DNA of 64,000 nt from contig NZ_CP061336.1 in assembly GCF_005473905.2 (NCBI RefSeq), forward strand, positions 3,092,501-3,156,500, written 5' to 3'. A program made the position numbers and the translations under genes. Below the pieces are notes generated by a model. That model made no database searches. It saw only the letters and a list, made by a program, of their open reading frames with translations, and had not been told where the DNA came from. Source of the stretch: Ruminiclostridium herbifermentans. GTDB taxonomy: Bacteria > Bacillota > Clostridia > Acetivibrionales > DSM-1351. Below, in pieces: positions 22,817 to 46,197 of this stretch. Every line of letters starts with the position of its first letter. Position 1 is the first letter of the stretch.

Positions 22817-23235
22817 CTATTTCTTGTCAAATTGTGGATTATAAGCATAGTAATTCTTAGAATCCATTTTTTCTTGTGCAACTCTCAGTGCTTCACCAAA
22901 ACGCTGGAAATGTACAATCTCTCTTTCACGCAGGAACTTGATTGGATCCCTTACATCTGGGTCATCTGCAAATCTGAGAATATTGTCGTAGGTAGTTCTG
23001 GCTTTTTGTTCCGCAGCTAAATCTTCAGTTAAATCAGTTATTGTATCTCCTTTTGATTGAAATACTGTTGCTGTAAATGGCATACCGGACGCTGCAATAG
23101 GATATAATGCTGTTGTATGGTCTACAAAATAGGTATCAAAACCGCTTGCCTTAATTTCATCAATTGTCAGTCCGCGTGTAAGCTGATAAACTATGGTCGA
23201 AACCATTTCCAAGTGCCCCAATTCTTCTGTACCTA
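22817..23235 (-). CDS. cotJC: cotJC exon 4 of 4 (spore coat manganese catalase, C-terminal 138 residues)
   Basis: Encodes the Mn-catalase core from GTEELGHLEM (Glu and His metal ligands) through DLTEDLAAEQKARTTYDNIL to FLREREIVHFQRF (last His ligand) and an NPQFDKK end. The frame runs upstream to an ATG at 23257, but there is no ribosome site and the residues before GTEEL no longer match the family. The first metal-ligand Glu and about 60 N-terminal residues are absent. They occur on the same strand at 30604-30624, 45907-45987 and 51647-51738. Joining at the TAGGT core restores DIGTEELGH in frame. Alone, this piece should be inactive. Confidence 0.93.
23231..23235 (-). other. Element 3 attachment core, 3' exon side (TAGGT)
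   Basis: The minus strand reads GTAGGTACAGAAG here and ATAGGTGTATCG at 30600-30611. The shared TAGGT is in the same codon phase (x-TA-GGT). Recombination between the two copies would delete 7,373 bp and give GAC-ATA-GGT-ACA-GAA. Confidence 0.8.
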
Positions 23236-23400
23236 CTATGTTATCGATAAGGTACATTCTGAACCCGTTCTTTAAGATTGAAATTCCATTTTAAAGTTGT
23301 AATCAGTGTCTCCTTATTGTTTAGTAAATTTTTTCTTTATGGCTGTAATCTATTTACAAGGTTGTAACTCGTTCCTCCCCATTGATTAATAATTCATTAA

Positions 23401-23455
23401 GCCAAAAACCGAAACAATGTGATTTTAATCCGCTATGAATCAATAATTTTTAATG
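23401..23455 (+). repeat. Decayed copy of the CCATGGATGG-core repeat
   Basis: AAAAACCGAAACAATGTG and CCGCTATGAATCA followed by TTTTTAATG match the 11.48-11.53 kb core (AAAAACCGATACGATGTC, CACACTATGAACCATGGATGG) with many changes. It lies between recombinase 1 and the element end, as the 46.02 kb copy does in element 1. Confidence 0.4.
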
Positions 23456-23477
23456 TTTAAAGGCTATCAATTTATCA

Positions 23478-25079
23478 TTAAATTTCAATAATAAGTTCAT
23501 AAACTGCATTATAATTTTCTCCTCTGCCAACCGTATTATAATGAATTTTTATAGAAGCCGGCATATATGATAAATATATTTCTAAAGTTTTGTTTTTGAA
23601 TACGATGATTTTATCAACCATTCTTTTATATATCTCGTTAAAATCATTGCCCTTTAGTCCGTTTAACATTGCCTTTATTCTATCAGTATATAATTGCAAA
23701 TTATCTTCTTTGCTTTTAAAATTATATTTCTCTATAGACTCAACTTCATTTTTTAATTTTTCAATTTCCTTGTCATACTTTTTAATCATTAAAATCATAT
23801 CATCTTTTGATATGCTGCCCTCTATCTGCAAATTGATAACATCCTGCTTTTTCTCAATTAGTGTGTCAATTTTTCTTAATAATGGCTCAAGGCTTCTGAT
23901 ATTCTGGCCATGCTTTAATTTCTTAATTTCAGTCATTAATTCTGCTAATATCTGCTCCTTATCATAGCTGATTAATTGTAAGATATAATTAACTGCATCG
24001 CTCACTATAATATGATTAATACTTTCATTGTTACATCCGATTGTATTTCCATTTTCATCAACTCTTCTTTTTCCTTGTGTTTTCGCTTGTTGGCATATCC
24101 ATGCTATGTAGCGTGCTCCATTTTTTAGCTTTTTACTTTTACAAATAAATTTACTACCGCATTCACCGCAAATTACTTTTCCTGAGCACCAATATCTATT
24201 GCTATACTTGCTTCTTTGCTCCCCTGAACTAGTTCTTTTTTGCAATTCCAGCTTAGTTTTCTCCCACAGGTCTCTTTCAATAATTGGTGAATGGTGATTT
24301 TTTATGTAAACAAATTCCTCCTCACCTTCATTGTACTTCTTTTTGTGATCCAAATAGTCAGGTGTTATTGTTTTTTTCTGTAATAAATCACCAACATACT
24401 TTTCATTTTTTAAAATTTTTAGAATTGCTCCATTTGACCATTTATTTCTATGCTTTTTAGATTTAATACCAGCCTCATATAATTCTCTTGCAATAATGTG
24501 AGTACCCTTCCCCTCAATTGCGTATTTATGAAAAATCATTCTTACAATTTGGGCCTCTTCTTCATTTACTGTTAAAACACCTTTTTTGAGCGAGTATCCT
24601 AATAATTCTCTGCCAAATACAACCCCTTGCTCCATCCTTCTTTTTTGTCCCCATTTTACTCTTTCAGAAGTTCTTCTGCTTTCATCCTGTGCAATACCTG
24701 CCATAATTGTAAGTCTTAATTCTCCATCACCATCTAGAGTATTTATATTATCATTTATAAAAATCACACCAATTCCCAATTTCCTTAGCATACGAGTATA
24801 TTCTATACTATCCAATGTGTTTCTCGCGAATCGAGATATTTCTTTAGTTAAAATCAAATCCAGCCTCCTATTTCGTGCATCCTCAATCATTCTTTGAAAT
24901 TCAATTCTGTTTTTCACCTGGGTGCCGCTAATGCCTTCGTCTGCATATATGTCAACCAATTCCCATTCGCCTTTGCTTTTTATATAATCATTAAAATATT
25001 TTTTTTGACTCTCAAGAGAATTTATTTGGTCATCTTTATCTGTTGAAACCCTGCAATATGCACCAACTTTAACTTTCAT
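23478..25079 (-). CDS. Large serine recombinase of element 3
   Basis: 533 residues. N-terminal resolvase domain with the catalytic Ser at residue 12 (GAYCRVSTDK), EGISGT, and the ISRFARNT arginine motif. A recombinase domain follows (about 160-260; GYSLKKGVL, KNEKYVGD), then a zinc ribbon (CSGKVICGECGSKF...CNNES) and a coiled coil (about 380-470). It is transcribed toward cotJC exon 4, with its stop 243 bp from the inferred att core. It should catalyse attL x attR excision of element 3. No frame damage is visible. Confidence 0.95.
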   Translation of the reverse strand: MKVKVGAYCRVSTDKDDQINSLESQKKYFNDYIKSKGEWELVDIYADEGISGTQVKNRIEFQRMIEDARNRRLDLILTKEISRFARNTLDSIEYTRMLRKLGIGVIFINDNINTLDGDGELRLTIMAGIAQDESRRTSERVKWGQKRRMEQGVVFGRELLGYSLKKGVLTVNEEEAQIVRMIFHKYAIEGKGTHIIARELYEAGIKSKKHRNKWSNGAILKILKNEKYVGDLLQKKTITPDYLDHKKKYNEGEEEFVYIKNHHSPIIERDLWEKTKLELQKRTSSGEQRSKYSNRYWCSGKVICGECGSKFICKSKKLKNGARYIAWICQQAKTQGKRRVDENGNTIGCNNESINHIIVSDAVNYILQLISYDKEQILAELMTEIKKLKHGQNIRSLEPLLRKIDTLIEKKQDVINLQIEGSISKDDMILMIKKYDKEIEKLKNEVESIEKYNFKSKEDNLQLYTDRIKAMLNGLKGNDFNEIYKRMVDKIIVFKNKTLEIYLSYMPASIKIHYNTVGRGENYNAVYELIIEI

Positions 25080-25239
25080 AGATTAGCACCTCATAATAAT
25101 GCCCATTATATTTGCTCAAATTCTAAGCTAAAAATTGTAGGTGTAATAAATCTTTATTTACTAAATGCAATTAATTTATTAGAAAATCTTATGTAAATAT
25201 ATTAATCTAAATTAACTTGCTCATTAATTTCAGCAGCTT

Positions 25240-25401
25240 TCAACGACGCATCAATTGATGGTTTTTAATTATCTGATCAATTTGCTCATATGTCAACAAT
25301 TTTTCACTGTGCAATTGATATAATATGCTCAATTTAAACTGACCTATAAAAATTTCTTTTTCCTCAGGAGTTAACTCAATTTTATCATTTTTTATAAGCA
25401 T
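25240..25401 (-). CDS. Small protein upstream of recombinase 1 (candidate directionality factor)
   Basis: 53 residues from the ATG at 25401, which has GGGGTG upstream; the frame is open to an ATG 11 codons earlier. Charged and helical (IELTPEEKEIFIGQF, LLTYEQIDQIIKNHQ), with a SHOCT-like C-terminus. It sits 160 bp upstream of the recombinase on the same strand. Small basic or helical proteins beside serine recombinases often act as recombination directionality factors; that role is inferred from position only. Confidence 0.6.
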   Translation of the reverse strand: MLIKNDKIELTPEEKEIFIGQFKLSILYQLHSEKLLTYEQIDQIIKNHQLMRR

Positions 25402-25569
25402 GCCGATTTCACCCCAATATATAATATTCTCCATAAAAAAAAGTGCCCCAATTTAGTAGCACTCCTATAGAAAAATATTTTGATAATAGAGAATAATCAT
25501 ATGCAAAGGCTTATTCAAACCAATAATAATTTTATCCGCTTGAAAAAGATACATCTGAATTGTTAGAAA

Positions 25570-26645
25570 TTGAAGCTGATCTTCCAAGAAACAAGCAAAT
25601 GTGGTGTTGCTGCGCAGAGCCTTACACAATAAAAATATGGCAGAAGTCAGGAATCAACTCTATAAAAAAGACACAACTAAATTGATAGAAATGGCAATTG
25701 CAGCTGACCTTCCAAGTAACAAGCAGATTTGGTATTCCTGCGCAGAGCCTTACACAATAAAAATATGGCAGAAGTCAGGAATCAACTCTATAAAAAAGAC
25801 ACAACTAAATTGATAGAAATAGAAATTACAGCTGACCTTCCAAGTAACAAGCAGATTTGGTATTCCTGCACAGACAATAAAAATATTGCAGAAGTCAGGA
25901 ATCAACTCTATAAAAAAGACACAACTAAATTGATGGAAATAGAAATTACAGCTGACCTTCCAAGTAACAAGCAGATTTGGTATTCCTGCACAGACAATAA
26001 AAATATTGCAGAAGTCAGGAATCAACTCTATAAAAAAGACACAACTAAATTGATAGAACTGGCAATTGTAGCTGACCTTCCAAGTAACAAGCAAATGTGG
26101 TGTTGCTGCGTAGAGCCTTACACAATAAAAATATTGCAGAAGTCAGAAATCAACTCTATAAAAAAGACACAACTAAATTGATAGAACTGGCAATTGCAGC
26201 TGAAATCCAAGTAACAAGCAGATTTGGTATTCCTGCACAGACAATAAAAATATTGCAGAAGTCAGGAATCAACTCTATAAAAAAGACACAACTAAATTGA
26301 TAGAAATGGCAATTGCAGCTTACCTCCAAGTAACAAGCAGATTTGGTATTCCTGCGCAGAGCCTTACACAATAAAAATATTGCAGAAGTCAGAAATCAAC
26401 TCTATAAAAAAGACACAACTAAATTGATAGAACTGGCAATTGCAGCTGAAATCCAAGTAACAAGCAGATTTGGTATTCCTGCGCAGAGCCTTACACAATA
26501 AAAATATGGCAGGAGTCAGGAATCAACTCTATAAAAAAGACACAACTAAATTGATAGAACTGGCAATTGTAGCTGACCTTCCAAGTAACAAGCAAATGTG
26601 GTGTTGCTGCGTAGAGCCTTACACAATAAAAATATGGCAGAAGAC
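25570..26645. repeat. Nine-unit decayed coding tandem repeat, 120-128 bp period
   Basis: The marker AAGCA(A/G)AT(G/T)TGG recurs at 25593, 25721, 25849, 25969, 26089, 26216, 26335, 26462 and 26590. Spacings are 128, 128, 120, 120, 127, 119, 127 and 128. The 120-bp units are 40 codons and translate in frame on the plus strand (KLIELAIVADLPSNKQ, DNKNIAEVRNQLYKK). Units with an extra 8 bp (around GAGCCTTA) or a missing base break the frame. The 40-residue motif resembles leucine-rich-variant or HEAT-like repeats. No start codon with a ribosome site or complete frame spans the array, so it is a dead repeat-protein gene. Confidence 0.8.
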
Positions 26646-26692
26646 AATATCAAATCTATAAATTTATTGAATTGAAAAGTTAAGTTATTATA

Positions 26693-27964
26693 TTATGTGG
26701 TTGCTTGAAAGATAAACCAGCCATCCTCAACTGAAAACTGGTATACACCACCATTCTTTTCCACAATATAATCCATGCTTTTTGTGCCAAAGCCATGCCC
26801 CTGTTCCTTTGATACAGGCATACCATTTTGAAATATTGGCTCAAGCTGATATCTGTTGCGGATATCAATACAAAGCTTGTTATTCTTGGAATACATACGT
26901 AACCGTATAATGCGCTTATTGCTGTCAAATATATGTTCCGAGGCCTGTATAGCGTTTTCCAAGGCATTTGACAATAGCGAACAAAGTTCGGTGTCGCTAA
27001 AGGGCAGCGAATCAGTAAGCTTCAAATCTATCTCTAACTGGACTCTCGACTGTTTTGCTTTAGTGGCAAAGTTGGACAAAATCAAATTGACAGTTTCGTT
27101 TTGACAATAGCGTACGGGCGTAATAGCGTCCATGTCAGACTGAGCAGTCTGTAGATATTTTTTAATCTCCTCTATTTGACCCTTAGCTGCAAGTCCCTGT
27201 AATAAAGCGAAATGGTGGCGCATGTCATGTCGATAGGATGCGGCAATCTGCTGCATCTGCTTCAGAGAATTAAATTCAGTTTGGGTCTGCCGAAACTGGG
27301 TATCCAAAATATCCCTCTCTCTTTGTATTCTTGTTTGTTTCTGCGTTTCTGAATAGTACATTAGTACAAACACAAAATAAAATGCAGATGTCACGAAGGG
27401 CATGAACTGTACGGCTACTCGAGCCCCACTATATAAAAAATCGGTGTAAACAATGGTTGCATAGTCAAATAGATAGTAAAAGGCCGGTATAGCACCAAAT
27501 AGCAGACAGGACTTCACCGAGCGTTCCATGAGATGTCTAACAGACATCACAACATATCTATGCAAAAGCCAGTACATCAGAAACGCGGTGGCAATATATC
27601 CAACATGATCCATAGATGCACTGTCAAAGATTTCTCCTATAACAGCACCAATCCAGCGTGGAGGTTGACAGCATAGAAATGATACAAACACACTGGTTAA
27701 TGAAATAAGCCATGAGCGCTTTATGTAAAGAGCAATAAAAATAGCAACCGGCAAGTGAGAAATCAGAGGATATATTTTAAGAGTTACTTCCATACCAAAG
27801 GAAGCTAAGAAGATTATTTGTAAAATAAATAATATGACAGTAAAGCAACCGACAGCTAAATGATTTTTCCATGTACGAACCAGCCCAGCAAAACTAACCG
27901 CAACTGCCGTGCCAAACAGCAGGGCAATATAGTAACGAGAGAATTCTATGACAGTTTCTATCAT
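26693..27964 (-). CDS. AgrC-like sensor histidine kinase (GHKL)
   Basis: 423 residues. The N-terminal half carries about six transmembrane helices. The cytoplasmic part has the SYRHDMRHHFALLQGL H-box (about residue 248), the N-box LLSNALENAIQAS and the G-box GHGFGTKSMDYIV of HPK10/AgrC kinases. Such kinases sense peptides and phosphorylate LytTR regulators. It lies 4 bp downstream of a LytTR gene that lacks a receiver domain, so its phosphotransfer partner is missing locally. Element 3 has no AgrB/AgrD genes. Confidence 0.88.
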   Translation of the reverse strand: MIETVIEFSRYYIALLFGTAVAVSFAGLVRTWKNHLAVGCFTVILFILQIIFLASFGMEVTLKIYPLISHLPVAIFIALYIKRSWLISLTSVFVSFLCCQPPRWIGAVIGEIFDSASMDHVGYIATAFLMYWLLHRYVVMSVRHLMERSVKSCLLFGAIPAFYYLFDYATIVYTDFLYSGARVAVQFMPFVTSAFYFVFVLMYYSETQKQTRIQRERDILDTQFRQTQTEFNSLKQMQQIAASYRHDMRHHFALLQGLAAKGQIEEIKKYLQTAQSDMDAITPVRYCQNETVNLILSNFATKAKQSRVQLEIDLKLTDSLPFSDTELCSLLSNALENAIQASEHIFDSNKRIIRLRMYSKNNKLCIDIRNRYQLEPIFQNGMPVSKEQGHGFGTKSMDYIVEKNGGVYQFSVEDGWFIFQATT

Positions 27965-27968
27965 CTGC

Positions 27969-28259
27969 TTATACTCCCTCCATTTGATATTTCAGATATT
28001 GCTGCTTAATTTCACGCACCTTGCCCTGTGCAACAGGGATAGTTGAAAGTGTCTGCAGTACAATTTGCTGCTTTTCAATGGCATCCACATACTGCATATT
28101 AACAATATAGGAGCGATGTGTTTTAACAAAGCACCCAAATTTCAGAAGATTATCGCAGACAGAGGAAAAAGACTCTTTACATTCAATCACCTTTCCAGAA
28201 CGCAAGTGATACAACACATTTCTGCCGATTACTTGGGCAAAAACCAAATTAGAAATCAA
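27969..28259 (-). CDS. LytTR DNA-binding protein without receiver domain (truncated AgrA-type)
   Basis: 96 residues forming only the LytTR domain (FAQVIGRNVLYHLRSGKVIE, KTHRSYIVNMQYVDAI, IPVAQGKVREIKQQYLKYQM). The frame opens after a TGA, with TTG at 28259 as the only start-like codon and no ribosome site. A strong AAGGGGG-ATG sits about 20 nt further up in another frame and gives only MKSTENIDF. A one-base change would fuse that start to the LytTR domain. Either a natural LytTR-only regulator with a sequence error, or a truncated pseudogene. Confidence 0.65.
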   Translation of the reverse strand: MISNLVFAQVIGRNVLYHLRSGKVIECKESFSSVCDNLLKFGCFVKTHRSYIVNMQYVDAIEKQQIVLQTLSTIPVAQGKVREIKQQYLKYQMEGV

Positions 28260-28736
28260 TATTTTCTGTTGATTTCATAAATATAACCCCCTTAATATGT
28301 AGAATTTCAATTGGTAAATTTTTCATATAACACAAACTTTTTTATATCTGAATAACATGTAACAAAAATATACCATGTATTTTATTCAATACATTATAAA
28401 TACCACTACTTTTATGAACCAAAACATAAATTGTAAAATTTTAGTTATATTTGTTATTTATTTTACATTTTTAAAATATATTTAGTTTTTTGGAGTGCCC
28501 TAAAAACACATCTTTGAATTAGATATACAGGAACTGGTACAAATCCCTTATACCATCTCTACCGGTACCTTTATTGTACAACAATTAAAACCTTCGTTAA
28601 GTGTGGCAAGAGACACAATAATGATTGTCTGTTGCAAAATAACAATTTCTATATACAGATGGCTTATTACTAAAAATAGTACGAAGAGCAAGAATATATT
28701 AATGCAAAGTTTGGTTATAAATTGATACTAAAAAAC
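28260..28736. other. Intergenic region upstream of the LytTR gene
   Basis: AT-rich, no ORF. It contains TGTTGCAAAATAACAATTTCT (28632-28652), resembling the stem-loop arm at 39868-39880, and scattered GGTACC-like inverted motifs (28530-28570). Nothing assignable. Confidence 0.3.
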
Positions 28737-28853
28737 AGGTGAAGAACAAGTCTTGCAGCCAACACAACTGAACTAAGCAGCTGTGAGTATTAACCAAAAG
28801 CAAGATTTCTTGGTCATACAGTCGGCGGAATTGCTTATGCTTGCTCTTCACCT
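28737..28853. ncRNA. Structured element, copy 1 of a two-copy motif
   Basis: The outer stem GGTGAAGA(A)CAAG / CTTG(C)TCTTCACC closes a branched fold with an internal hairpin (CCAA...TTGG flanked by GTAT/ATAC). It aligns along its whole length with 60413-60521. Conserved bases are concentrated in GTGAGTATTA, CCAAG..TTGGT, ATAC and GTCGGC, while stem bases covary (for example CTTGCTCTTCACC against CTTGTTCTTCACC). It lies 128 bp beyond the stop of the manganese catalase gene. Strand of expression unknown. Confidence 0.6.
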
Positions 28854-28980
28854 CAATTATTTCATCGTCAATTTAGGGAGTGAACCATAAATATATACTG
28901 TACGGGAGTACTTATTTAAAATTTTACTTATAATACTATTTCTTATTTTAAAAGCCCTATTTAAAATATAGTTTTAAGTT

Positions 28981-29670
28981 TTACATTTTAGTCCCCGTAG
29001 TATTTGGAGAATTAAAGCTAGGTGGCTGAGGATTATTTGCATTAAAAAATTGATCTCCTGGGGTTGAAAGATTAAAGTATAGCTTAGAGTCTTTTGTTAT
29101 TCCCCAATCCTTCAAAGAGCCAGTATCCTGCAATCTGTTAAAAGCTTCTCTGAACATGGTGTTATGTGCTTCTTCACGATTGAGCAGAAAATCAATTGTT
29201 TCTCTAACACCTTTATCAGTTATCTGTCTGTATAGATATTGATAAACTACTTTTGCTCTCTGTTCAGCAGCAATATTTGATAATATATCAGCAGCAAGAT
29301 CGCCTGTTTCTTCAATATATGCAGCTGTCCAGTATTGTCCAGATGCACTTGTTAAACCTGGTGTAAGTCCAGTAGAAACATGAGCTTGAATAGTTCCTAC
29401 TGTTGCATCTTTTGCATCAAGCACATGCCCATTTAGTAAGTTAACAGTAGTAGCTACCATTTCCATATGACTCAATTCTTCTGAGGCAATATCCAAAAAT
29501 AAATCCTTGATTTCTGGATCCTTAATGCGAAGACTCTGAGACAAATACTGCATTGCAGCTTTTAATTCTCCATGCGGCCCTCCTAATTGTTCCTGCATCA
29601 TACTTGCGTACATTATGTTAGGTCCATCAACTTTAACCTCGTGTAATAAAGCTTTATCATGTTTAAACAT
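28981..29670 (-). CDS. Manganese catalase family protein
   Basis: About 229 residues from the likely start MFKHDKALLHEV at 29670. The di-manganese ligands are visible: GELKAAMQYL (first Glu), ASEELSHMEM (Glu and His), SNIAAEQRAKVVYQ (Glu) and EEAHNTMFREAF (His). It decomposes H2O2 and is typical of spores or stationary cells. The best ribosome site (AGGAGG, 29732-29737) serves an ATG at 29721 that is in frame but meets TGA after six codons (MSFILW-stop). Translation must restart at 29691, 29682 or 29670, or read through. Confidence 0.85.
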   Translation of the reverse strand: MFKHDKALLHEVKVDGPNIMYASMMQEQLGGPHGELKAAMQYLSQSLRIKDPEIKDLFLDIASEELSHMEMVATTVNLLNGHVLDAKDATVGTIQAHVSTGLTPGLTSASGQYWTAAYIEETGDLAADILSNIAAEQRAKVVYQYLYRQITDKGVRETIDFLLNREEAHNTMFREAFNRLQDTGSLKDWGITKDSKLYFNLSTPGDQFFNANNPQPPSFNSPNTTGTKM

Positions 29671-29910
29671 ATTTATGTCCATGCCTGTCATTTGGCTTAA
29701 TCACCATAATATAAATGACATGGACTAAACACCTCCTTTAAATGTAAACTAAGTATTTTTCATAACATACATTCATTCTTTTGTAGCCTTTACTATTAAA
29801 ATAAAAGTATACCTTGAAAATTATTGAAATAAACAATACTGTAAATTGAATACTAGTATGGATTTAATAGTTTAAGATTTTTAGGTGTATTTACATTTTG
29901 GAGATATAAA

Positions 29911-29953
29911 AAGAGAAGATAAGCTTTTTAATTAAGCTTATCTTCTCCTTTTA
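29911..29953 (-). terminator. Terminator after the element 3 abrB-like gene
   Basis: Stem GAGAAGATAAGCTT/AAGCTTATCTTCTC with a T-run on the minus strand, 120 bp after the stop at 30073. The remainder of 29722-30072 is AT-rich without genes. Confidence 0.75.
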
Positions 29954-30072
29954 TATCTTTCCATTCATCATTAGCATACTTAACTTTTGTAAATCCCAAC
30001 TAAGCAGATAAAAATAGAACTTCTGTTTCAATATCATTTTTCTCAAAAAATAATATCCTCTATTTATATCTA

Positions 30073-30315
30073 TTAGTCCTTCTTCAACTCATTCATGCAT
30101 GATTGACATATATTTTTACCTTTGTAATTGGTTACATTTGATGCATCATTGCAAAAAATGCATGCAGGTTCGTACTTCTTCAATATAATTGTTGACTCAT
30201 CTACATATATTTCCAAAGCATCCTTTTCCTCAATATTAAAGGTTCTTCTTAACTCAATTGGTAATACTATTCTTCCTAATTCATCTACTTTTCTTACTAT
30301 TCCTGTCGATTTCAT
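30073..30315 (-). CDS. AbrB/SpoVT-family transition-state regulator with zinc ribbon
   Basis: 80 residues from the ATG at 30315 (GGGAG upstream). N-terminal swapped-hairpin DNA-binding domain KSTGIVRKVDELGRIVLPIE, then a C-terminal CIFC...CQSC pair that could bind zinc. About 85% identical by eye to the protein at 52600-52842, so one copy rides on element 3 and the other lies outside all elements, next to the cotJ operon. A regulator of this class could link element behaviour to the transition state. Confidence 0.88.
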   Translation of the reverse strand: MKSTGIVRKVDELGRIVLPIELRRTFNIEEKDALEIYVDESTIILKKYEPACIFCNDASNVTNYKGKNICQSCMNELKKD

Positions 30316-30603
30316 AAATGTGTGTCTCCCTTTCATTATTTTATTTCCTTAGACATTATTTTACTATATCTCCTACTATATGTCAACAATTTTCGTATAT
30401 TTTGTCGTAAAAAATATTAATAGCACTTTTTTTAGAAGGATATCAACAAAATAACAGCCCTAAAGTATGCATCAATAGCCAATTTCAGCTGTATTTATTA
30501 AATAATTACTCCAAATCAATTTCCAGCTAAAAAGCATATGGTTTTGTTCATATATTTGTTAAGTCAGTGAAATACATTAGATGTATCTTTTCGATAACGA
30601 TAC

Positions 30604-30608
30604 ACCTA
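30604..30608 (-). other. Element 3 attachment core, 5' exon side (TAGGT)
   Basis: Partner of the core at 23231-23235. Reads ATAGGTGTATCG on the minus strand; sequence after TAGGT belongs to the element. Confidence 0.8.
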
Positions 30609-30624
30609 TGTCGGTAAGAACCCC
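30604..30624 (-). CDS. cotJC: cotJC exon 3 of 4 (micro-exon)
   Basis: The minus strand reads GGG-GTT-CTT-ACC-GAC-ATA-GGT, encoding GVLTDIG, exactly the residues missing between the end of exon 2 (YKEVKG) and the start of exon 4 (GTEEL). Only 18 bp are unique after sharing the GGG and TAGGT cores. Outside these bases the match to the family stops on both sides. In situ it is flanked by in-frame stops, so it is meaningful only after excision of elements 2 and 3. Confidence 0.88.
30622..30624 (-). other. Element 2 attachment core, 3' exon side (GGG)
   Basis: The minus strand reads GCAAAAGGGGTTC here and GTTAAGGGGATT at 45904-45915. GGG in matching codon phase is shared, with AA two bases before it in both. 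Only this phase gives an open frame; aligning the four G residues directly shifts the frame to a stop. Confidence 0.65.
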
Positions 30625-30829
30625 TTTTGCTATTCTGTACAAATGTATATAGGTTACTATAATAGTTAATATTATCAATTTACTCTTTCAGTTGATATTT
30701 AAGTGTTTAAACTTATAAAATGAAAAGTTAATTAAATAAAATAACTTGGTTTACTTGGTAACCACCATAAGTAAATTTAAATATGGAAGGACTTTTCATC
30801 CCAAATCTAAGTTAATTATTAAATTTGTT

Positions 30830-32476
30830 TTAATTTTTTGCACTTTTGTAGAGTATATCATCATAAGACTTGTCTAGCATATTCCAGACAATGTAAATAT
30901 ACCTATGTTCCTTTCCGTCATCATCAAATATCGTATAAGCTTCAATCCTATTAATTATTTTTTTTAATTGGGCATTGTCAAGATTATCTATGTCAACATT
31001 ATTGAGAAAATCAATATAATTATTATATTTAAGAAGTGCTTGCTTCTTTTCCTCATCAATGTTCTTCAATTTAGTCAGCTCTTTGCTTATAGCTTTTTTA
31101 CTGCTTTGCAATTCATCATTTTGCTGCTTATACTGTTCTTCACCAATAATATCTTTTGAAAACAGTCGTAAATTAGCTGACATCTGAGCTTTTATATCGT
31201 CCAATTGATGCTGAAGTTCCTTTATCTTTTCAGTTAGTTCCTCAGCACTAAAGTAGGATTGCATATATTGCGAAAACATTTTGTCCAGATTTTCTTTGTT
31301 TAATCTTAAATTTTCAATTTCCTCTTTAACCCTTTTAATCAGCACTTCTTCATGCCATGAATTTCTATACCTGCAAATATCATTATGATACTTGTCATGC
31401 TGTATACAAACCCACTCAATTCCAGTATTTCTAGTCCCATCTTTGCGCTTCCAGCCCCATAATTTCTTTCTCCGCATTGCCATTCCACAATTCCGGCAAA
31501 ATAAAAGATTACTGAATAAATGTGCATTACTGGGTCTATTGCTATTACTAAACATCTCTTTTCTAATTATAGTTTGTTTTTGAACTTTGTCAAATATTTC
31601 ATCAGATACAGCCCGTAAATCCTCCCTTTCTGTAATAATCCAACTCCCTTCATCTATGGGTTTACGGCTTCTGTATATTTTTCCTTTATGCTCAAATCTA
31701 TCTATATTAATATCAGTATTAACCACTGTATGAGTTATCTGTCTTCCAACATATATTTGATTAGCTAAAATATAATATATCTGAGGTGTTGACCATTTTC
31801 GTCCCTTTTGGGTAGGTATATTTTCTTTATTCAGATATTTTACAATACGAGTACTTCCCCAGCCTTCCAAGTACAAATCAAATATTTTTTTGACCACTTC
31901 AATTTGTTCCGGAATGGGTACTAAAAATCCATTTTTAGATTTGTAGCCATACGGACAAGCACTTGTAAACTTCCCTGCTTCCTGAGCCTTTCTAATGCCA
32001 AATTGAACTGCTGTGCTCTTTGCTCTGCTTTCTTCTTGAGCCATTACAAATAATATATTAATAGTTGCTTCATTAGCAGGATTAGAACTATCTAGCCAGC
32101 CATCTTCAAAAATAACTTTAATGCCCATTACTTTTAACTTTTTAATAATTCCAGCTCCATCTTCAACATTTCTAGCCCATCTCTGAACATTCTTTACCAA
32201 TATTGCATCAAACTCTTTTCTATATGCACATTCAAGCATATACTTAAATGCACCTCTATTTTTTAATTTGGTACCTGAAATACCTTCGTCTGCAAATATT
32301 GATTTAATATATCTAGTGTATTCTTTTTTACCATCCTTACAATAGTACATTCCACAATCTGCACCTTCAAAGCCTTTTTTATTAAACAATTCTGTGTAAT
32401 GCCTAATTTGATTTTCCAGACTTGTCATTTGCTCAGGATTATCACTTGAAACTCTGCAATAAGCAACACATTTCAT
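30830..32476 (-). CDS. Large serine recombinase of element 2
   Basis: 548 residues. The catalytic Ser is residue 10 (AYCRVSSDN). The arginine motif is altered (VQRWARNVED rather than SRFARN). Recombinase domain about 180-290 (PYGYKSKNG), zinc ribbon CRNCGMAMRRKKLW ... CIQHDKYHNDICRYRN, and a long coiled coil (about 420-510). Same strand as cotJC and points to exon 3. Sequence clearly different from the other two recombinases, in keeping with a different core. Appears intact. Confidence 0.94.
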   Translation of the reverse strand: MKCVAYCRVSSDNPEQMTSLENQIRHYTELFNKKGFEGADCGMYYCKDGKKEYTRYIKSIFADEGISGTKLKNRGAFKYMLECAYRKEFDAILVKNVQRWARNVEDGAGIIKKLKVMGIKVIFEDGWLDSSNPANEATINILFVMAQEESRAKSTAVQFGIRKAQEAGKFTSACPYGYKSKNGFLVPIPEQIEVVKKIFDLYLEGWGSTRIVKYLNKENIPTQKGRKWSTPQIYYILANQIYVGRQITHTVVNTDINIDRFEHKGKIYRSRKPIDEGSWIITEREDLRAVSDEIFDKVQKQTIIRKEMFSNSNRPSNAHLFSNLLFCRNCGMAMRRKKLWGWKRKDGTRNTGIEWVCIQHDKYHNDICRYRNSWHEEVLIKRVKEEIENLRLNKENLDKMFSQYMQSYFSAEELTEKIKELQHQLDDIKAQMSANLRLFSKDIIGEEQYKQQNDELQSSKKAISKELTKLKNIDEEKKQALLKYNNYIDFLNNVDIDNLDNAQLKKIINRIEAYTIFDDDGKEHRYIYIVWNMLDKSYDDILYKSAKN

Positions 32477-32547
32477 AAAACTTCTGCTCAGCTCCTATAT
32501 CACTTAATATAACAACAAATATATTTACATTAAATATTTGGGCTTAT

Positions 32548-32736
32548 TTATTGCAGGAACAATTTCTGATTGACCAATGACTCCCATTTGATATATAGTT
32601 CTTCGGGAATGGGTTTTAATCCATATTCATATGTAATAATATCATTAACTCTTATATTAAGAAGTTCTGACAATTGTTCATCTGACAAATCATTATCTCT
32701 CACTCTTAATAAATATAGTTGACGCCCAGTTAACAT
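32548..32736 (-). CDS. Small protein upstream of recombinase 2 (candidate directionality factor)
   Basis: 62 residues, ATG at 32736 with a GGAGGTTGAATT site. Contains a helix-turn-helix-like stretch LSDEQLSELLNIRVNDIITY. It lies 72 bp upstream of the recombinase on the same strand, the position of the 53- and 42-residue ORFs in elements 3 and 1. Role inferred from position. Confidence 0.65.
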   Translation of the reverse strand: MLTGRQLYLLRVRDNDLSDEQLSELLNIRVNDIITYEYGLKPIPEELYIKWESLVNQKLFLQ

Positions 32737-33000
32737 ATAAATTCAACCTCCACTACATACTATTCAGGCAAGTAAAAAATGTAGCTTTATTAACTGGAGT
32801 TTTTAATAAGAAATAGTTAGCATTGTATAAATATATAATCTCGATGCGTTTTGTCGAATTTTGTTGATTTTTATGGTTTTGTTTGATATAATTAAATAGT
32901 ATCTATCACAAAAAATACATACAATCTATACGCTTTACCACATTATTACATCTTAACTATATTTTCCTATGACTGCATTAATTTATAGGAGGTTTTTGCT

Positions 33001-33054
33001 ATGGCTGCATTAATTTATAGGGAAGCAACCAAATATGTAATTTTAATGCAATAA
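33001..33054 (+). CDS. 17-codon ORF in the chemoreceptor leader
   Basis: ATG with a perfect AGGAGG 8 nt upstream encodes 17 residues (MAALIYREATKYVILMQ), 60 bp before the chemoreceptor start. Its first 20 bases nearly repeat the 20 bases just before its ribosome site (CTGCATTAATTTATAGG twice). It could be a leader peptide or a by-product of a 31-bp duplication. The rest of 32737-33114 shows no gene. Confidence 0.3.
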   Translation: MAALIYREATKYVILMQ

Positions 33055-33114
33055 CATTAAACAGATATGTAATTTCACGCCAAACTCAAAATCATAAAAA
33101 TTGGAGATGACTTT

Positions 33115-35109
33115 ATGAAATTTAAAAGTATTACAAAACAAATTACTTTATTATTTGGAATTTTAATGTTTGTAATCTCTGCAGGCTTAGGAGGTATTTC
33201 CAACATTACTTCTAGCAATGCACTAAAAATAAATGTAGACCAAAATCTCTTAGAAATAGCCCAAGCTGATGCAAAAATTATTAATGAAAAAGTAAATAGT
33301 CAACTCAATGCCTTAGAAGCAATAGCAAATAGTCCATGGATAAAAAGTAATGATATTACAATTGACGAAAAAATGTCCTATCTTAATGATGAAGTAAATC
33401 GAAGTGGATATAAAACTTTAATGATTGCAGATACTAATGGTGTTGCCCGCTTGACAACTGGAGAAACTATTGATGTTAAAGATAGGGATTACTTTATTAA
33501 AGCTTTATCAGGAAGTACTGCTGTTTCAGATCCCATAGCCAGCAAAACAGACGGAAGCCTAGTTGTAGCATTTGCAGTTCCAATTAAAGAAGGTAATTCA
33601 GTGAAAGGTGCACTCATAGCTGGACGAGATGGCAATGAGTTAAGCAATTTTACTTCTGAAATGCAGTATGGTGAGCAAGAAGTCTTTATGATCAACAATG
33701 AAGGCACTACGGTAGCAAGTAAAGATCCAAGCCGTGTCTTGTTCAATATTAATGAACAATATAAAGCTAACCCAGCAATAGAAGGATTATATAATATTCA
33801 AATGAAAATGGCTGCTGGTGAAAAAGGTGTAGCTGAATATGATCTTAATGGTGTAACTAAATACGCTGGATATTATCCTGTTGAAGGTACAAATTGGTCA
33901 TTAGGTATAACAGCACCAAAATCAGTGGTTATGGCTAATATAAGCAATTTAACCAGGTCAATGCTACTGGTATTTGTTATCTTTCTATTGCTTAGCTTAA
34001 TAATAACTATATTGATTTCTCGCAGTATCTCCAAACCAATCAAAGAGGCCACCAAATGTCTAAATGATATATCTACAGGAGACTTTACAGTAAGTATTTC
34101 TCAAAAGCTCCTAGCAAAGAAAGATGAAATAGGTAGTTTGGCCAATTCGCTTGACAAGATGCAGAGTTCAATACGCACCATGATGAAAGCAGTTGTTGAT
34201 GAATCCTCTAATGTCAGTCAAATGCTAATCGAAATAAACAAGGATATGCAAAGCTTGAATGAAAACATCGAAGATATTTCCTCCACTACAGAACAATTGT
34301 CTGCAGGAACAGAAGAAACAGCTGCTTCAAGTGAAGAAATGAATGCAACTTCTTTAGATGTAGAAAAAGCAATTGAGTCAATTGCTACAAAAGCCCAAGA
34401 AGGTGCAACAACTGTTAACAAAGTAAGTACAATGAGTGAACAAATGAAGGTAAAGGCAATCGCTTCTAAACAAGAAGCTCTGGAGATATTCAGCAGAACA
34501 AAGGCCAATTTGCAAAGTGCAATTGAACAAGCCAAGGCAGTCAATCAAATTAATGAATTATCTCATGCTATACTGGAAGTTACAACCCAAACCAATTTGC
34601 TGTCTTTGAATGCAGCTATTGAAGCCGCTAGGGCAGGAGAAGCCGGCAAGGGATTTGCAGTGGTAGCAGATGAAATCAGAAAGTTAGCTGAAGACTCAAA
34701 AGCTTCTGTATCGCGAATTCAAGAAGTTACAAATGAAGTTCTGGAAGTAGTAAATGATCTATCCTCAAGTTCTATGGAAATTATGGAGTTTATTGATAAA
34801 AAGGTACTCAATGATTATGAAGGCTTAGTAAAAACTAGTGAGAGTTATAATGAACACTCTATAGTGATTAACGACATAGTAACTGATTTCAGCGCAACCT
34901 CAGAGGAACTTTTGGCATCCACGCAGAACATGATTAAAGCCATATCACAGATAACCACAGCTGCCAATGAAGAGGCTGTAGGAGCAACAAATATTGCCCA
35001 GAAAACAGCAGTAATTGTTAATATGGTTGAAAAGGTCGTAAACCTATCAAGTAAGTCAAATGATAAATCAGAATCTCTGATTAAGATAGTTAATCAATTT
35101 AAGATATAG
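33115..35109 (+). CDS. Methyl-accepting chemotaxis protein
   Basis: 664 residues. TM1 near residues 10-30, an extracellular dCache-type sensor (about 35-275; [11 protein letters not shown] and [15 protein letters not shown] are typical), TM2 about 283-303, HAMP about 305-358, then the cytoplasmic signalling hairpin with the highly conserved tip [20 protein letters not shown]. It relays ligand state to CheA/CheW. The sensor type often binds amino acids or organic acids. Only gene on the plus strand of element 2; no che genes nearby. Confidence 0.93.
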
Positions 35110-35194
35110 TTCATACTAATTATCTAATGCTAAAATGAACGGGGACGCTGTAATAAGTTTTGTTGAGAGTATGTGAAGTTTTTCTGTAAAATTA

Positions 35195-35230
35195 AAGGTA
35201 TGGAGGCCGAAAGATTAGCTTCCATACCTT
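35195..35230 (+). terminator. Hairpin after the chemoreceptor gene
   Basis: Stem AAGGTATGGA/TCCATACCTT with a 16-nt loop, 85 bp after the stop. The T-tract is poor. Confidence 0.5.
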
Positions 35231-35431
35231 GTTTACAATAAAAGCTAAATTTCTTAGAATGAAACATAGTAAATATATTCTCCTTTGATACTATATATTA
35301 GTATGGAGGAATTTGGATGAAAAAATAACATTCCTGTTATTTTTCCATCCATTTCTTGTTCATGCTACAATCAGAGAAGTATTGGGGTCTGACAACTACC
35401 CTTTTTGTTAAGAATTTAAGTATTAACTAGA

Positions 35432-35500
35432 GAAGAGATTTTTTTATGAGTGTTTACAAAAAGATTTTAAGCAATTTTACGTTATAATCTCTTCGCCTTT
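35432..35500. terminator. Hairpin between convergent chemoreceptor and esterase genes
   Basis: GAAGAGATT (35432-35440) pairs with AATCTCTTC (35486-35494), followed on the plus strand by GCCTTTTT. A long 45-nt loop makes it a moderate candidate. Confidence 0.45.
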
Positions 35501-35515
35501 TTCCCTAAAACATAA

Positions 35516-37915
35516 TCATTTGCTGTCCAAGAACAAATCTGGCAAGATATTGTATAGGTAACGATTCACGCAGGTCCAGTTGTGAGCTCCGCCATTTAAT
35601 GTTAAGTAATAGAAGTTACCCTTTCTCAAATCTGCTGAGTAAACAAATATATCAGTAAGCTTCTTCATTTCATCAACCTGAGCGTTCATTCCACTATAAG
35701 CCAAATCAGCAGTACCTGTTGCACAGAAAATTCTTATATCATCTTTTGTGTAACCCGCCTTTTTAGCGATTTCAGCTAAATATTTAGCCCTAATCTCATC
35801 ATCAGTTCCTGTGAAATTATATCCTTCTTTCTTTATTGAGTCTATATCCTGAAAACACCATAAACTAATTGGAATATAGTATTTAAAATAATCTATACTA
35901 TAAATGTAGTTAAACCATGTGCAAGCAGAGCCCATTGAGAATCCGCCAACAGCCCTGTGATTTCTTGCTGCAATCAAGTCTTTTTCACTGGTAGACTCCG
36001 CATATACATTAAATTTCCCTTCGATTGTAGGTATGATATCCTTCACTAATTCATTATGGAAATTCTTAATACGGAACATTCCATCTTCATTCTGTCTCTC
36101 AGGACTAAATGGAGCTGTATTATACCAAGTAGGAGTAACGATAATGGTTGGCTTCATCTTACCATCAGCAATCAAATTATCAACTACTCTCATAAGTTCT
36201 GTATTCTGATTAACATCACCAAAAGCAGTGTGCTGGCTCTCAGCATTACCATGAATCAGGTATAGTATATCATATTTCTTGGTTTTATCGTTGGCATCAT
36301 ATCCGTGAGGAAGATATACAAGCATATACTTGTCTAAATCTTTTGCTTCTTGGTCGTAGGTATTAGTTTTGTAGTCAACTCTTACAATAGTTCCTCTTAT
36401 GTTCTCTGGATCTGACGTCCTGTATGCTTTTGGTATATCTCTGCACTCTTTTTCGTCAAAGGATAAGTCATTGTGTACCAAGTTATCAATAGCAGCCTGT
36501 AATTTTATGAGCAATTGGTCAAATTGTGCCTGTGTTGAAGCTTTATCAGCAATGGCAGCTTCTGATTCTTTAATTAGTGAATCAACTACATCACCGTTAG
36601 AATAACGTTGCAGTTCTATATCCTTTGCACTAATAACTAATGATTTCAAATCATAATAGTTTGGTTTTGATATAGAATTAGGACCTTTACCAGTTAAAAT
36701 CAATTGGCCAAACTTTGATGTATCTTGGTAAGCAGTACCAGTAGTATCAAATATATTAATCGTTGCTATTCTTGTGCTGCCTGTTGCATCATTAATCTGA
36801 CCTTCCATCCCCATTACCTTACCATTAGCTGGAGTCTCAGATAATGCAACACGGCCTTCAATTACATAACCGTCTGCTACTACCTTTGCAGCTGAATACA
36901 AATTGGTTAAATCACCATGGTCAGCGGATCTCTCATTTTTGAAATTAATTCTAAACTGACTATCATCGCCTTCATATATACCACATCTCTTATTATCTTC
37001 GTCTAGGAAAAATTCGACGCTATCCTTTTCATAAACATTTCCGGAAGCATCAGAAATGTTAGCATCCTTTACTTCAGCCAAAAAATACACAGCATAATCA
37101 TCCCACAATACCCTCAAAGTAGCTGTCGTATCAGTACTGCCAGATATCTTTGTAAATTTTACAGGCTCAGCAACATTCCAAGCATCTTCAATTTCTCCGT
37201 CAATATCATCTGGTGCGCCATAGTAAGCAACAACTCTTCCGCTGGCATCAAGACCATTCGCATCTACTTTAACCCTTTGAATCTCTTGCTCTCCAATATT
37301 TGCCATATCATAGCCCAGCACCTCCGCAAGAGTCTTTGTTCCTCCAGCCACTGGAGTATTAAGAGCTTCAATAAGCGCAGTTACCAAATTAGCATTGCTT
37401 ATCTGACCTTTTACAGTACTAATCTTGGTAAGACCCTTTTCAGCTGCAAACTTAATTGTGTCTGCATATATATAGTCTTTCCCTGCTTTGTAGCCCAATA
37501 CTTCAAGCACTATTTTATAAATCATCTGGGCTGTAGCTGGGCCATTAGGATCAAATTTGTCTCCGCCTATACCATTCCAACCCAACTGCGGATTAGCCTT
37601 CAAATATGCTAAAACATTTCTTCCTTCTTTCCAAGCTAATGAATCAGCATCAACAAAATTTTCTTCAGATGAAAATTTAAGTGCTTCATCCAATAATCCA
37701 TACAATTTAAGAGAAATTACTGCAGCTTGAATTCTTGTAGTTCCTTTTGCAAGATATTCTGCATTTACACCATTTCCATCGCCATTAATAATATTAAGCT
37801 TTTCCAAATATTGTGCATCAGTATTAACATTATCAACAGCAAATGCAGGTAACGAAAATGTTACAAGCACACACATTGCTAAGACTGCTGCAATTAACTT
37901 TTTAAGATTCCTCAT
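35516..37915 (-). CDS. Surface-anchored SLH - CBM9 - CE1-type esterase
   Basis: 799 residues. Signal peptide (LPAFA cut near residue 27), S-layer-homology region (about 30-205), a CBM9/DOMON-like module (about 215-415; FWDDY-type core at RVLWDDYAVYFLAEVKD), a helical linker (about 425-480), and a C-terminal esterase (about 500-799). The esterase has LIHGNAESQ, nucleophile GGFSMGSAC and His in GGAHNWTCV, as in feruloyl/acetyl-xylan esterases of family CE1. The SLH part holds the enzyme on the wall rather than in the cellulosome. Last gene of the sugar-uptake block, so it probably releases substituents from xylan-derived chains for import. Confidence 0.88.
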   Translation of the reverse strand: MRNLKKLIAAVLAMCVLVTFSLPAFAVDNVNTDAQYLEKLNIINGDGNGVNAEYLAKGTTRIQAAVISLKLYGLLDEALKFSSEENFVDADSLAWKEGRNVLAYLKANPQLGWNGIGGDKFDPNGPATAQMIYKIVLEVLGYKAGKDYIYADTIKFAAEKGLTKISTVKGQISNANLVTALIEALNTPVAGGTKTLAEVLGYDMANIGEQEIQRVKVDANGLDASGRVVAYYGAPDDIDGEIEDAWNVAEPVKFTKISGSTDTTATLRVLWDDYAVYFLAEVKDANISDASGNVYEKDSVEFFLDEDNKRCGIYEGDDSQFRINFKNERSADHGDLTNLYSAAKVVADGYVIEGRVALSETPANGKVMGMEGQINDATGSTRIATINIFDTTGTAYQDTSKFGQLILTGKGPNSISKPNYYDLKSLVISAKDIELQRYSNGDVVDSLIKESEAAIADKASTQAQFDQLLIKLQAAIDNLVHNDLSFDEKECRDIPKAYRTSDPENIRGTIVRVDYKTNTYDQEAKDLDKYMLVYLPHGYDANDKTKKYDILYLIHGNAESQHTAFGDVNQNTELMRVVDNLIADGKMKPTIIVTPTWYNTAPFSPERQNEDGMFRIKNFHNELVKDIIPTIEGKFNVYAESTSEKDLIAARNHRAVGGFSMGSACTWFNYIYSIDYFKYYIPISLWCFQDIDSIKKEGYNFTGTDDEIRAKYLAEIAKKAGYTKDDIRIFCATGTADLAYSGMNAQVDEMKKLTDIFVYSADLRKGNFYYLTLNGGAHNWTCVNRYLYNILPDLFLDSK

Positions 37916-38108
37916 ACTCTCAAATCCTCCTAAGTAGAATAAATTTAAGCTTGCCTTTTAAAACGCCTAGATTAAATTAATTTTTTGGTTATATGCACCA
38001 CCAAAAACACTTGTAGTTTTAGTGGCTTAATAATACACCTTGGTCGCACATACTTTATTTTCGAACTATTACAATCAGCGGCGACAAATCTTTTTTTCTA
38101 TAAAAGCT

Positions 38109-38948
38109 CTATCCCTTCACTGCACCAGCTACTAAACTTTTTTGAACCTGTTCACTAAGCAGTACATATATTATTACCGTCGGTAATGTAGCAATTACAA
38201 GGCCGGCGCCGATAGGCCCCCATTCAGTTACATATGTACCAACCATAGACATAATACCAACTGTAATTGTTTTTAATTGATCTTTACTAATAAATGTAAT
38301 AGCAAACATCAGTTCATTCCATGAAGCCAAATATGTAAAAATAGCAACCGTTGCTATTGCTGGCCTTATAAGAGGAATTACAATTACAGAAAAAATACGG
38401 TAAATTGAACATCCATCAATAGCTGCCGATTCTTCCAACTCCCTAGGAATGCCTTTCATAAAGCTGCTAAATAATATAATGGCCATAGGAAGGCCAAACG
38501 CTGTATATGGAATAATAAGAGATAAATATGTATTGTAAAGATTAATATTTTTAAGAATAATAAACAGAGGGAGTAGTGCTGCATGTACTGGAACCATCAT
38601 CCCTAGTAAAAAAGCAATCATCGTAGCATTGCTAAGTTTCCATTTCATTCTACTAATAGCATATGCAGTCATGGATGCTAAAATAATTACTGCAATAATA
38701 GTAACTCCAGTTACAAACGCACTGTTAAAGAAGTATTTAAGTACACTTGCCTGAGTAATTGCGTTAGTATAGTTCTCCCACTTAGGAGGATTAGGCAGAC
38801 CAGCAACATTTCCTCCATAAATTTCATTATTATCTTTAAGGGAAAACAGAACCATCCAGATAAGAGGATATATCTGTATAATAGCATACAATATAAGAAA
38901 AAGCTGTATAAAAAACTTTGCCATCTTTCCTTTTATCAAATTATTCAT
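38109..38948 (-). CDS. Sugar ABC transporter permease, MalG type
   Basis: 279 residues, six membrane helices. Contains the EAA-loop EESAAIDGCSIYRIFSVIVI that contacts the ATPase subunit. Second permease of a CUT1-type importer with the genes at 38967 and 39951. The MsmK-type ATPase is not in the window and is usually shared. 18 bp from the upstream permease. Confidence 0.94.
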   Translation of the reverse strand: MNNLIKGKMAKFFIQLFLILYAIIQIYPLIWMVLFSLKDNNEIYGGNVAGLPNPPKWENYTNAITQASVLKYFFNSAFVTGVTIIAVIILASMTAYAISRMKWKLSNATMIAFLLGMMVPVHAALLPLFIILKNINLYNTYLSLIIPYTAFGLPMAIILFSSFMKGIPRELEESAAIDGCSIYRIFSVIVIPLIRPAIATVAIFTYLASWNELMFAITFISKDQLKTITVGIMSMVGTYVTEWGPIGAGLVIATLPTVIIYVLLSEQVQKSLVAGAVKG

Positions 38949-38966
38949 AAAGTCTCACTCCAAAAC

Positions 38967-39836
38967 CTATTCTGTTTTAAATACCTTGTCTAAAATAATA
39001 GTAAATACCAAACATTCTATAATTATAAATACAGCCATTGCGCTGCCATATCCATATTGATATGAATTAAAAACAGACGAATACATCAGGGTACTTGGCA
39101 CTTCAGTTGCATGTAAAGGACCGCCATTTGTTAAAACATAAATTAAGTCAAATACTTTAAGTGACCCTATCAGTGAAAATATTAAGCAAACCTTTAAAAT
39201 AGGCTTCAACAATGGTATTGTAATTTTAAAAGCCGTATTAATTTTTGATGAACCATCTATTTCAGCAGCTTCATATATTTCATCTGAAATTGATTTTGCC
39301 CCTGAATACATAATCAACATGTGGTATCCTACATATTGCCACAATGTAGGAATGAATGAGCATACTAAAGCTGTATTTTCTTTTCCTAACCAATCATACG
39401 CTAAGTTTTCCAAGCCTATACTTTTAAGCAGTGCGTTCAGCAAACCATAGTCTGCATTATAAATTTTTGTCCATAACTGACCAATAACAATTGTTGAAAT
39501 TATTACAGGAATAAAATAAATAGTTCTATATAACTTTTCTCCTTTTACTCCATTTGCCAATATAAGTGCCAGAACTAGCGAAATACTAAGTTGTATAAAT
39601 ATTGACGCAAAAGCAAATAAAAAAGAATTAAGAATAGATTTAAGAAAAACATCGTCTGAAAACAATTTTATATAATTATCAATTCCAATAAATGTACCCT
39701 TTCCAATCCCATCCCAGTCCAATGTACTATAATAAGCTGACATAAATATTGGAAGAAATACTATTACACAAAAAACAATTAATGTTGGGATTACAAAAAT
39801 GCAAATAGCTTTTTTATTAGAAAGAACTGAGTCCAT
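38967..39836 (-). CDS. Sugar ABC transporter permease, MalF type
   Basis: 289 residues with six helices and EAA motif YEAAEIDGSSKINTAFKITI. N-terminus KKAICIFVIPTLIVF fits CUT1 permeases without a long extra domain. Partner of the MalG-type permease. Separated from the binding-protein gene by 114 bp that hold a strong stem-loop. Confidence 0.94.
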   Translation of the reverse strand: MDSVLSNKKAICIFVIPTLIVFCVIVFLPIFMSAYYSTLDWDGIGKGTFIGIDNYIKLFSDDVFLKSILNSFLFAFASIFIQLSISLVLALILANGVKGEKLYRTIYFIPVIISTIVIGQLWTKIYNADYGLLNALLKSIGLENLAYDWLGKENTALVCSFIPTLWQYVGYHMLIMYSGAKSISDEIYEAAEIDGSSKINTAFKITIPLLKPILKVCLIFSLIGSLKVFDLIYVLTNGGPLHATEVPSTLMYSSVFNSYQYGYGSAMAVFIIIECLVFTIILDKVFKTE

Positions 39837-39864
39837 GAAAGTATACCACCTTTAAAAGCAAGTA

Positions 39865-39913
39865 GCTGTTGCAAAACAACTATTGATTATATTATTTCTT
39901 GCTTTGCAACAGC
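39865..39913 (-). terminator. Stem-loop between binding-protein and permease genes
   Basis: An 11-bp stem GCTGTTGCAAA/TTTGCAACAGC with a 27-nt loop and no T-tract. Hairpins in this place commonly stabilise the 5' message so that binding protein exceeds permease. The loop TTGATTATATTATTTCTTG recurs at 63573-63591. Confidence 0.7.
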
Positions 39914-39950
39914 CCCTCAAAATATAATTAAGTTCTGTATTTACACTTCA

Positions 39951-41282: not shown

Positions 41283-41406
41283 TAATTTAACCTCCTTGAG
41301 TTTCGTGTTAATTTTTAAACAACGCATCAATTATAGCAGTGATATTGCTCAAACTAAATTCAATATTATTGCATTAACATTCAAAAATTTATCATTCAAA
41401 AATTCA

Positions 41407-44887: not shown

Positions 44888-45123
44888 TAGATAAATACCT
44901 CACTATTATTTTACATACAATTTTTAATTACAACCTCCAGCATAGCCAATTAAATTGGAGGTGCTTCAAACCTAAAAAATGTCATTATTTACTTAGTCAA
45001 ACAAGTGAAGCTTCATTTTATATAACTACATTCTATACAATAAGTATATACTGTATTTTTTACTAAATTATAGCATGAAGTGCTTTTTTTTCAATACTAA
45101 TCTATTTGTAGAGGCAGTCTTAC

Positions 45124-45693: not shown

Positions 45694-45906
45694 AAGTACC
45701 TCCTTAATATCTGAATAAGCTTTATTCCGTTAAAAATAATGCTAAGTCGTAAATCAACTAGTTTAATTAGTAGATTCACTAAAATTAATATTTGAAACAC
45801 TATCAAACTTGCTTCGCATGTATTATTATAATCTATTAGAAATTTTATAACGACCAAAGAATAAACAACGTAAAACTTTACAAATCAATATACAAAAATA
45901 AAAAAT

Positions 45907-45909
45907 CCC
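45907..45909 (-). other. Element 2 attachment core, 5' exon side (GGG)
   Basis: Partner of 30622-30624. Minus strand GTTAAGGGGATTTT; exon sequence precedes GGG and element sequence follows. Confidence 0.65.
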
Positions 45910-45987: not shown

Positions 45988-46020
45988 GGTTTTCATGTTT
46001 TCTTAATAAAGATTTTTATA

Positions 46021-46090: not shown

Positions 46091-46197
46091 TGAATTAGTA
46101 GGTTCAAATAGTTCTGCTATAATTGTCTTAGTATCTTTCAGCAAGTAATTAAATACATCAGAGCTAAAATATATTAATATATCTGCAAAGGGAATGT

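Follow-up and report, generated by a model that had tools for sequence, protein, structure and literature searches.

The spore-coat catalase gene cotJC of Ruminiclostridium herbifermentans is split by three serine-recombinase elements, two of which flank a 21-nt exon

The gene cotJC, which encodes a spore-coat manganese catalase, lies on the minus strand of the chromosome (4.82 Mb, single contig) of R. herbifermentans, a cellulose degrader, where it is interrupted by three elements that each carry a large serine recombinase (LSR) of their own. We analysed this locus within a stretch of 64,000 nt, referred to here as the window, whose relevant features are listed below in the direction of cotJC.

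52275-52021, minus strand: cotJA, uninterrupted
52014-51742, minus strand: cotJB, uninterrupted
51649-51738, minus strand: cotJC exon 1, codons 1-30, following intact cotJB and cotJA
45985-51648, minus strand: element 1, 5.66 kb, between the GG/GG centres of codon 31, with attP dyad
47868-48002, minus strand: 44-aa ORF adjoining LSR1 and kept in relatives, candidate directionality factor
46198-47856, minus strand: LSR1 of element 1, 552 aa (Pfam Resolvase, Recombinase, Zn_ribbon_recom)
45913-45984, minus strand: cotJC exon 2, codons 31-54, 72 nt
30628-45912, minus strand: element 2, 15.3 kb, between the AA centres of codon 55, with attP dyad
32548-32736, minus strand: 62-aa ORF adjoining LSR2, 70% identical in G005 and G006, candidate directionality factor
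30830-32476, minus strand: LSR2 of element 2, 548 aa (Pfam Resolvase, Recombinase, Zn_ribbon_recom)
30607-30627, minus strand: cotJC micro-exon, codons 55-61 (KGVLTDI), 21 nt from centre to centre
23234-30606, minus strand: element 3, 7.37 kb, between the GG centres of codon 62, with attP dyad
25240-25434, minus strand: 64-aa ORF adjoining LSR3, with 56-59% identity to its counterparts in four relatives, candidate directionality factor
23478-25079, minus strand: LSR3 of element 3, 533 aa (Pfam Resolvase, Recombinase, Zn_ribbon_recom)
22817-23233, minus strand: cotJC exon 4, codons 62 to stop, 417 nt, containing GTEELGH (Pfam Mn_catalase)

Crossover registers were assigned by reconstructing attP at each junction in all possible registers and scoring the inverted symmetry of its arms over 30 arm positions. 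In every species or almost every one, a single dyad centre per site was conspicuous: the inverted arms flank a shared crossover dinucleotide, and each element has one common centre. For element 1 this centre is GG at codon 31, which scores 21/30 in the window and a mean of 20.8/30 across 10 species, compared to about 5-12 elsewhere. Element 2 is centred on AA at codon 55 (left 45912-45911, right 30627-30626), with the attP dyad TATACA-N16-AA-N16-TGTATA and a mean of 20/30 in 4 species; its margin in the window is modest, at 17/30 versus 15/30 when another centre in that register is taken. Here frame and symmetry point to the same register, and in G005, AA is the only dinucleotide near the codon register that both ends of the element have in common. 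Element 3 is centred on GG at codon 62 (left 30606-30605, right 23233-23232), with a mean of 14/30 in 6 species; the score is only 9 in G004 and reaches 22/30 in G014. All three centres fall at codon boundaries (phase 0). Three other joins were discarded: the longest end identity of element 2, AAGGGG, gives a frameshift, and the dyad test was used in its place; a GG centre for the same element, considered by eye, was dropped because AA centres the TATACA/TGTATA arms exactly; and the core ACATAG for element 3, which would add a Val to the protein, failed the dyad test.

With these registers the four segments measure 90, 72, 21 and 417 nt, and joining them yields an intact CotJC of 199 aa. Composites of ~195-205 aa without stops were likewise obtained in 10/10 species where assembly was possible, so that the interrupted sporulation gene is otherwise intact. 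Whole-gene pN/pS values of 0.02-0.14 (0.02-0.09 within G005/G006/G007, about 0.14 to the window) show that purifying selection acts on the split gene. A full-length manganese-catalase paralogue, 37% identical to CotJC, is encoded within element 3 (28981-29691, minus strand) and is the only uninterrupted CotJC relative found in the window genome; several relatives carry a homologue of it elsewhere in the chromosome.

The shortest segment, AAA GGG GTT CTT ACC GAC ATA, encodes the conserved sequence KGVLTDI directly before the EELxH motif. An earlier note on this DNA had placed GGG-GTT-CTT-ACC-GAC-ATA-GGT between two elements, and this sequence is indeed present at 30624-30604 on the minus strand, each neighbour having its own LSR. 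Its further claim that the piece supplies the residues missing from the protein is borne out insofar as this is a genuine coding exon, but the residues number seven (KGVLTDI, 30627-30607) rather than six. Similarly, the two sites do interlock there as the note proposed, with cores that the dyads relocate to AA of codon 55 and GG of codon 62. The same 21-nt piece lies between homologous elements in G005, G006 and G007, making four species with the window. Among these three it shows synonymous differences only (pS 0.38-0.56, pN 0), in keeping with the remainder of cotJC, and relative to the window there is a single amino-acid difference, V/T at codon 57. Because the changes among relatives are synonymous, selection on the seven codons appears to act through the protein. 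A composite pattern of the element 2 arm motif, micro-exon and element 3 arm occurs once in the window versus 0.00 expected from 100 shuffles, which says only that random sequence does not yield it, the pattern having been written from known examples. When one genome per GTDB species was scanned with the pattern, the micro-exon was found elsewhere only in R. papyrosolvens C7, one of the three other Ruminiclostridium species that contain it.

All three recombinases have the full set of LSR domains, and in the window each lies at its element's 3′ end, on the same strand as cotJC. Between species the small ORF beside each LSR is kept and most of the cargo is not; since conservation beside the recombinase is expected of directionality factors such as CD1234 and GirX, we regard these ORFs as candidates for that role. 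A family match above the cut-off was not found for the 62-aa and 64-aa ORFs. The larger ORFs of elements 2 and 3, read by eye, comprise transport, regulator, histidine-kinase and catalase genes, and a pattern search of viral contigs (IMG/VR) found no relatives of LSR2. Element 1 carries a helix-turn-helix regulator and AgrB/AgrC-like quorum-sensing genes (48782-51374, by eye), and element 3 contains a tandem array at 25568-26662 with a period of 128 bp, 8.8 copies and 89% matches. Two very similar AbrB/SpoVT-like genes were also observed on the minus strand, one inside element 3 beside the micro-exon (30073-30336) and one upstream of cotJA (52600-52842), with a homologue (66-67%) in the element 3 region of G004.

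Across the genus, cotJC exon 1 is split off at site 1 in 11/11 genomes, all of which have an LSR1 orthologue at this site; the remainder of cotJC was not located in G008. Element 1 occurs alone in G001, G003 and G010, together with element 3 in G002 and G004, and with both other elements in G005, G006 and G007; element 2 without element 3 was not seen among the 11 genus genomes. LSR2 orthologues 73-74% identical occupy the same site in G005/G006/G007, as do LSR3 orthologues (64-66%) in G002/G004/G005/G006/G007. The pattern extends to other families of the order, where the same three positions of cotJC are interrupted: relatives of LSR1 (51-57% identical) at site 1 in G014, G015, G018, G028, G030 and G031, of LSR2 (63-65%) at site 2 in G028 and G032, and of LSR3 (58-62%) at site 3 in G011 and G014. 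Each LSR family is tied to one of the three sites across these families, where AA-centred and GG-centred dyads recur. Element 2 without element 3 is found in G028 and G032, and element 3 without element 2 in G002, G004 and G014. Because each occurs without the other across the order, the genome comparison identifies elements 2 and 3 as independent of each other, as the earlier note had assumed, and their different centres (AA, GG) and arm motifs agree with this. By the same token, because sites 2 and 3 are each found occupied with the other empty, the micro-exon arises when elements fill both.

The orientation of the elements varies. Judged by LSR strand and side, all three in the window (23234-51648) are opposite to most relatives examined, in which the LSR lies on the strand opposite cotJC and nearer the 5′ end; element 1 of G009 resembles the window. 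With tsf as reference, the cotJ locus too is inverted compared to several relatives, and the element arms are near-palindromic in G000 (arm-swap test). Identities between the window and G002/G004-G007 are about 61% for LSR1, 74% for LSR2 and 65% for LSR3, with 81% for CotJC, values compatible with independent insertion and with inversion of the elements alike. Several relatives have further LSR genes within about 10 kb upstream of cotJ (for example G002:C1:504066-505382 and G007:C1:1671495-1672499), which perhaps mark another interrupted gene.

The spacing of the two inner crossover sites bears on how elements 2 and 3 could leave. Exactly 19 bp separate the AA dinucleotide of element 2 from the GG dinucleotide of element 3, a centre-to-centre distance of 21 bp. 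In the A118 system, attB requires specific sequence extending ~19 bp to either side of its 2-bp crossover and, beyond this, about 3 bp of additional DNA (PMC3556126), and the zinc-domain motif occupies attP positions 16-24 and attB positions 11-19 (PMC3783163). The arm motif of element 2, which follows N16 from AA, fits the attP position, and the micro-exon offers the ~19 bp per side of an attB half-site when A118, rather than LSR2 or LSR3 themselves, is taken as the yardstick of length. Because this spacing equals an A118 attB arm, the micro-exon appears to form one complete half-site common to both elements, serving attB2 as its right half and attB3 as its left. The earlier note had argued that each site must reach into the neighbouring element and that excision order may consequently be constrained. 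Neither point is upheld by the 19-bp spacing, which provides a full A118-type half-site with either or both elements present; and since either att site keeps its sequence out to 19 bp from the crossover whether or not the neighbouring element is there, neither element would have to leave first and either order appears possible. Since the half-site is shared, a recombinase subunit bound for one element should exclude that for the other, and the two excisions would probably be mutually exclusive and sequential, in either order. For the fuller proposal, that 21 bp of coding sequence double as an attB half-site for two recombinases whose deletions exclude one another, the last of them gating production of the protein, we see the chances as evenly balanced.

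An obligatory order, in which one element must go before the other has a proper site, would draw on the overlap of sites 2 and 3 by a whole half-site and on the roughly 3 bp of flanking DNA that A118 attB wants beyond its 19 bp. We consider it unlikely, given that 19 bp of sequence are available on both sides in every state, that the extra flank is thought to provide backbone contact only, and that each element exists in nature without the other. A joint departure in which elements 2 and 3 form a single composite unit (45.9-23.2 kb), the event that the earlier note had named as its own refutation and which would make the 21-nt piece a leftover, accords with their adjacency and would also preserve the frame, the micro-exon being 21 nt. 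It is nevertheless highly improbable: the outer centres (AA versus GG) are unmatched and their arms differ, the elements are each found without the other elsewhere, and the conserved KGVLTDI right before the EELxH motif would be deleted.

Two further readings dispense with excision. Were cotJC dead in this strain, the elements would be no more than ordinary insertions, and what is left of the gene would be a pseudogene in decay; excision itself is inferred rather than directly seen, and the full-length paralogue inside element 3 could be taken to point the same way. We regard decay as quite improbable in light of the frame kept in all fragments, the stops found in 0/10 composites, the low pN/pS, the intact state of cotJA, cotJB and all three LSR genes, and the split at site 1 in every genome of the genus. 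Alternatively, the elements might be retained, with the protein produced from a joint transcript or by translational bypass. We found no support for this, the insertions measure 5.7-15.3 kb and bear recombinase-type attP dyads, and to our knowledge no transcript or bypass mechanism operates at such a size; its probability is close to nil.

We therefore return to excision, and consider it very likely that cotJC is a programmed split gene, interrupted by three independent LSR elements that each have their own excision and of which two share a half-site. In the proposed scheme the three elements would occupy three phase-0 attB sites in a highly conserved part of cotJC, and at sporulation each LSR, together with a small directionality factor, would most likely cut its own element out of the mother-cell chromosome. 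Excision would restore full-length CotJC, and the spore genome would retain the elements. LSR2 and LSR3 would use one 19-bp half-site, read from opposite ends, such that elements 2 and 3 leave sequentially and never at once, with either able to go first. Excision in the mother cell with the aid of a small factor is probable by analogy to skin, SPbeta and gin. A sigma-K-like promoter lies upstream of the element 1 module in strict form in 5 clade-A species, and three further genomes (G003/G008/G009) have a similar -10, CATATTAT. Its form is CACM-N15/16-CATANNNTA, about 127 bp upstream of LSR1 (L037, L032, L035, L039, L033). No such promoter was found at the conserved place in the window genome, and sigma-E/sigma-K scans of the element 2 and 3 modules across the genus found none. 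Timing is the weakest part of the explanation, because no promoter was found for elements 2 and 3 and that of element 1 is not conserved in the window.

Several sporulation genes are known to be interrupted in a comparable way. The skin element in sigK of B. subtilis and C. difficile, whose excision requires the 72-aa directionality factor CD1234 (PMC5025042), resembles the cotJC elements in that an LSR element splits a mother-cell sporulation gene; it differs in being one element in one gene for a sigma factor, whereas cotJC encodes a coat catalase and holds three elements, two apparently sharing a half-site. The gin element in gerE of B. cereus ATCC10987 encodes an LSR and the small directionality factor GirX of 6.5 kDa (PMC5595907), and SPbeta interrupts spsM in B. 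subtilis as an intervening element with sporulation-specific rejoining (PMC4191935). Both resemble cotJC in having a non-prophage or prophage intervening element, an LSR, a small directionality factor (in cotJC, a candidate beside each LSR) and an inverted-repeat att site on the element, although each is a single insertion without a micro-exon. Further intervening elements in sporulation genes are vfbin in spoVFB, vrin in spoVR and, in C. botulinum, yin in yabG, all of them single insertions in other genes. Outside sporulation, heterocyst-forming cyanobacteria have several interruption elements per gene in 10 genes, with four in Rivularia nifD, and these use serine or tyrosine recombinases whose gene orientation varies, according to the parts of the source available (PMC4874684); they belong to another developmental process and other genes, and those parts contain no 21-bp exon or shared half-site. 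In the open-licence PMC literature, the interrupted sporulation genes we found were sigK, spsM, spoVFB, spoVR, gerE and yabG, with cotJC not among them; searches for an interrupted cotJC turned up no paper, and the searchable portion describes no stack of three excisable elements in any sporulation gene. Relative to that searchable literature, what is new is that a sporulation gene carries such a stack, that the three-site pattern spans the order, and that a conserved 21-bp exon appears to serve as a shared half-site.

The exon between elements 2 and 3 is about as short as LSR sites permit, and thus offers a natural test of the minimum spacing of serine-integrase sites and of competition between recombinases for a common half-site. 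Together with the directionality-factor candidates, the sites are candidate parts for ordered recombinase logic. For the organisms themselves, the locus poses the question of why three recombinase families return to the same codons of a coat gene across a bacterial order.
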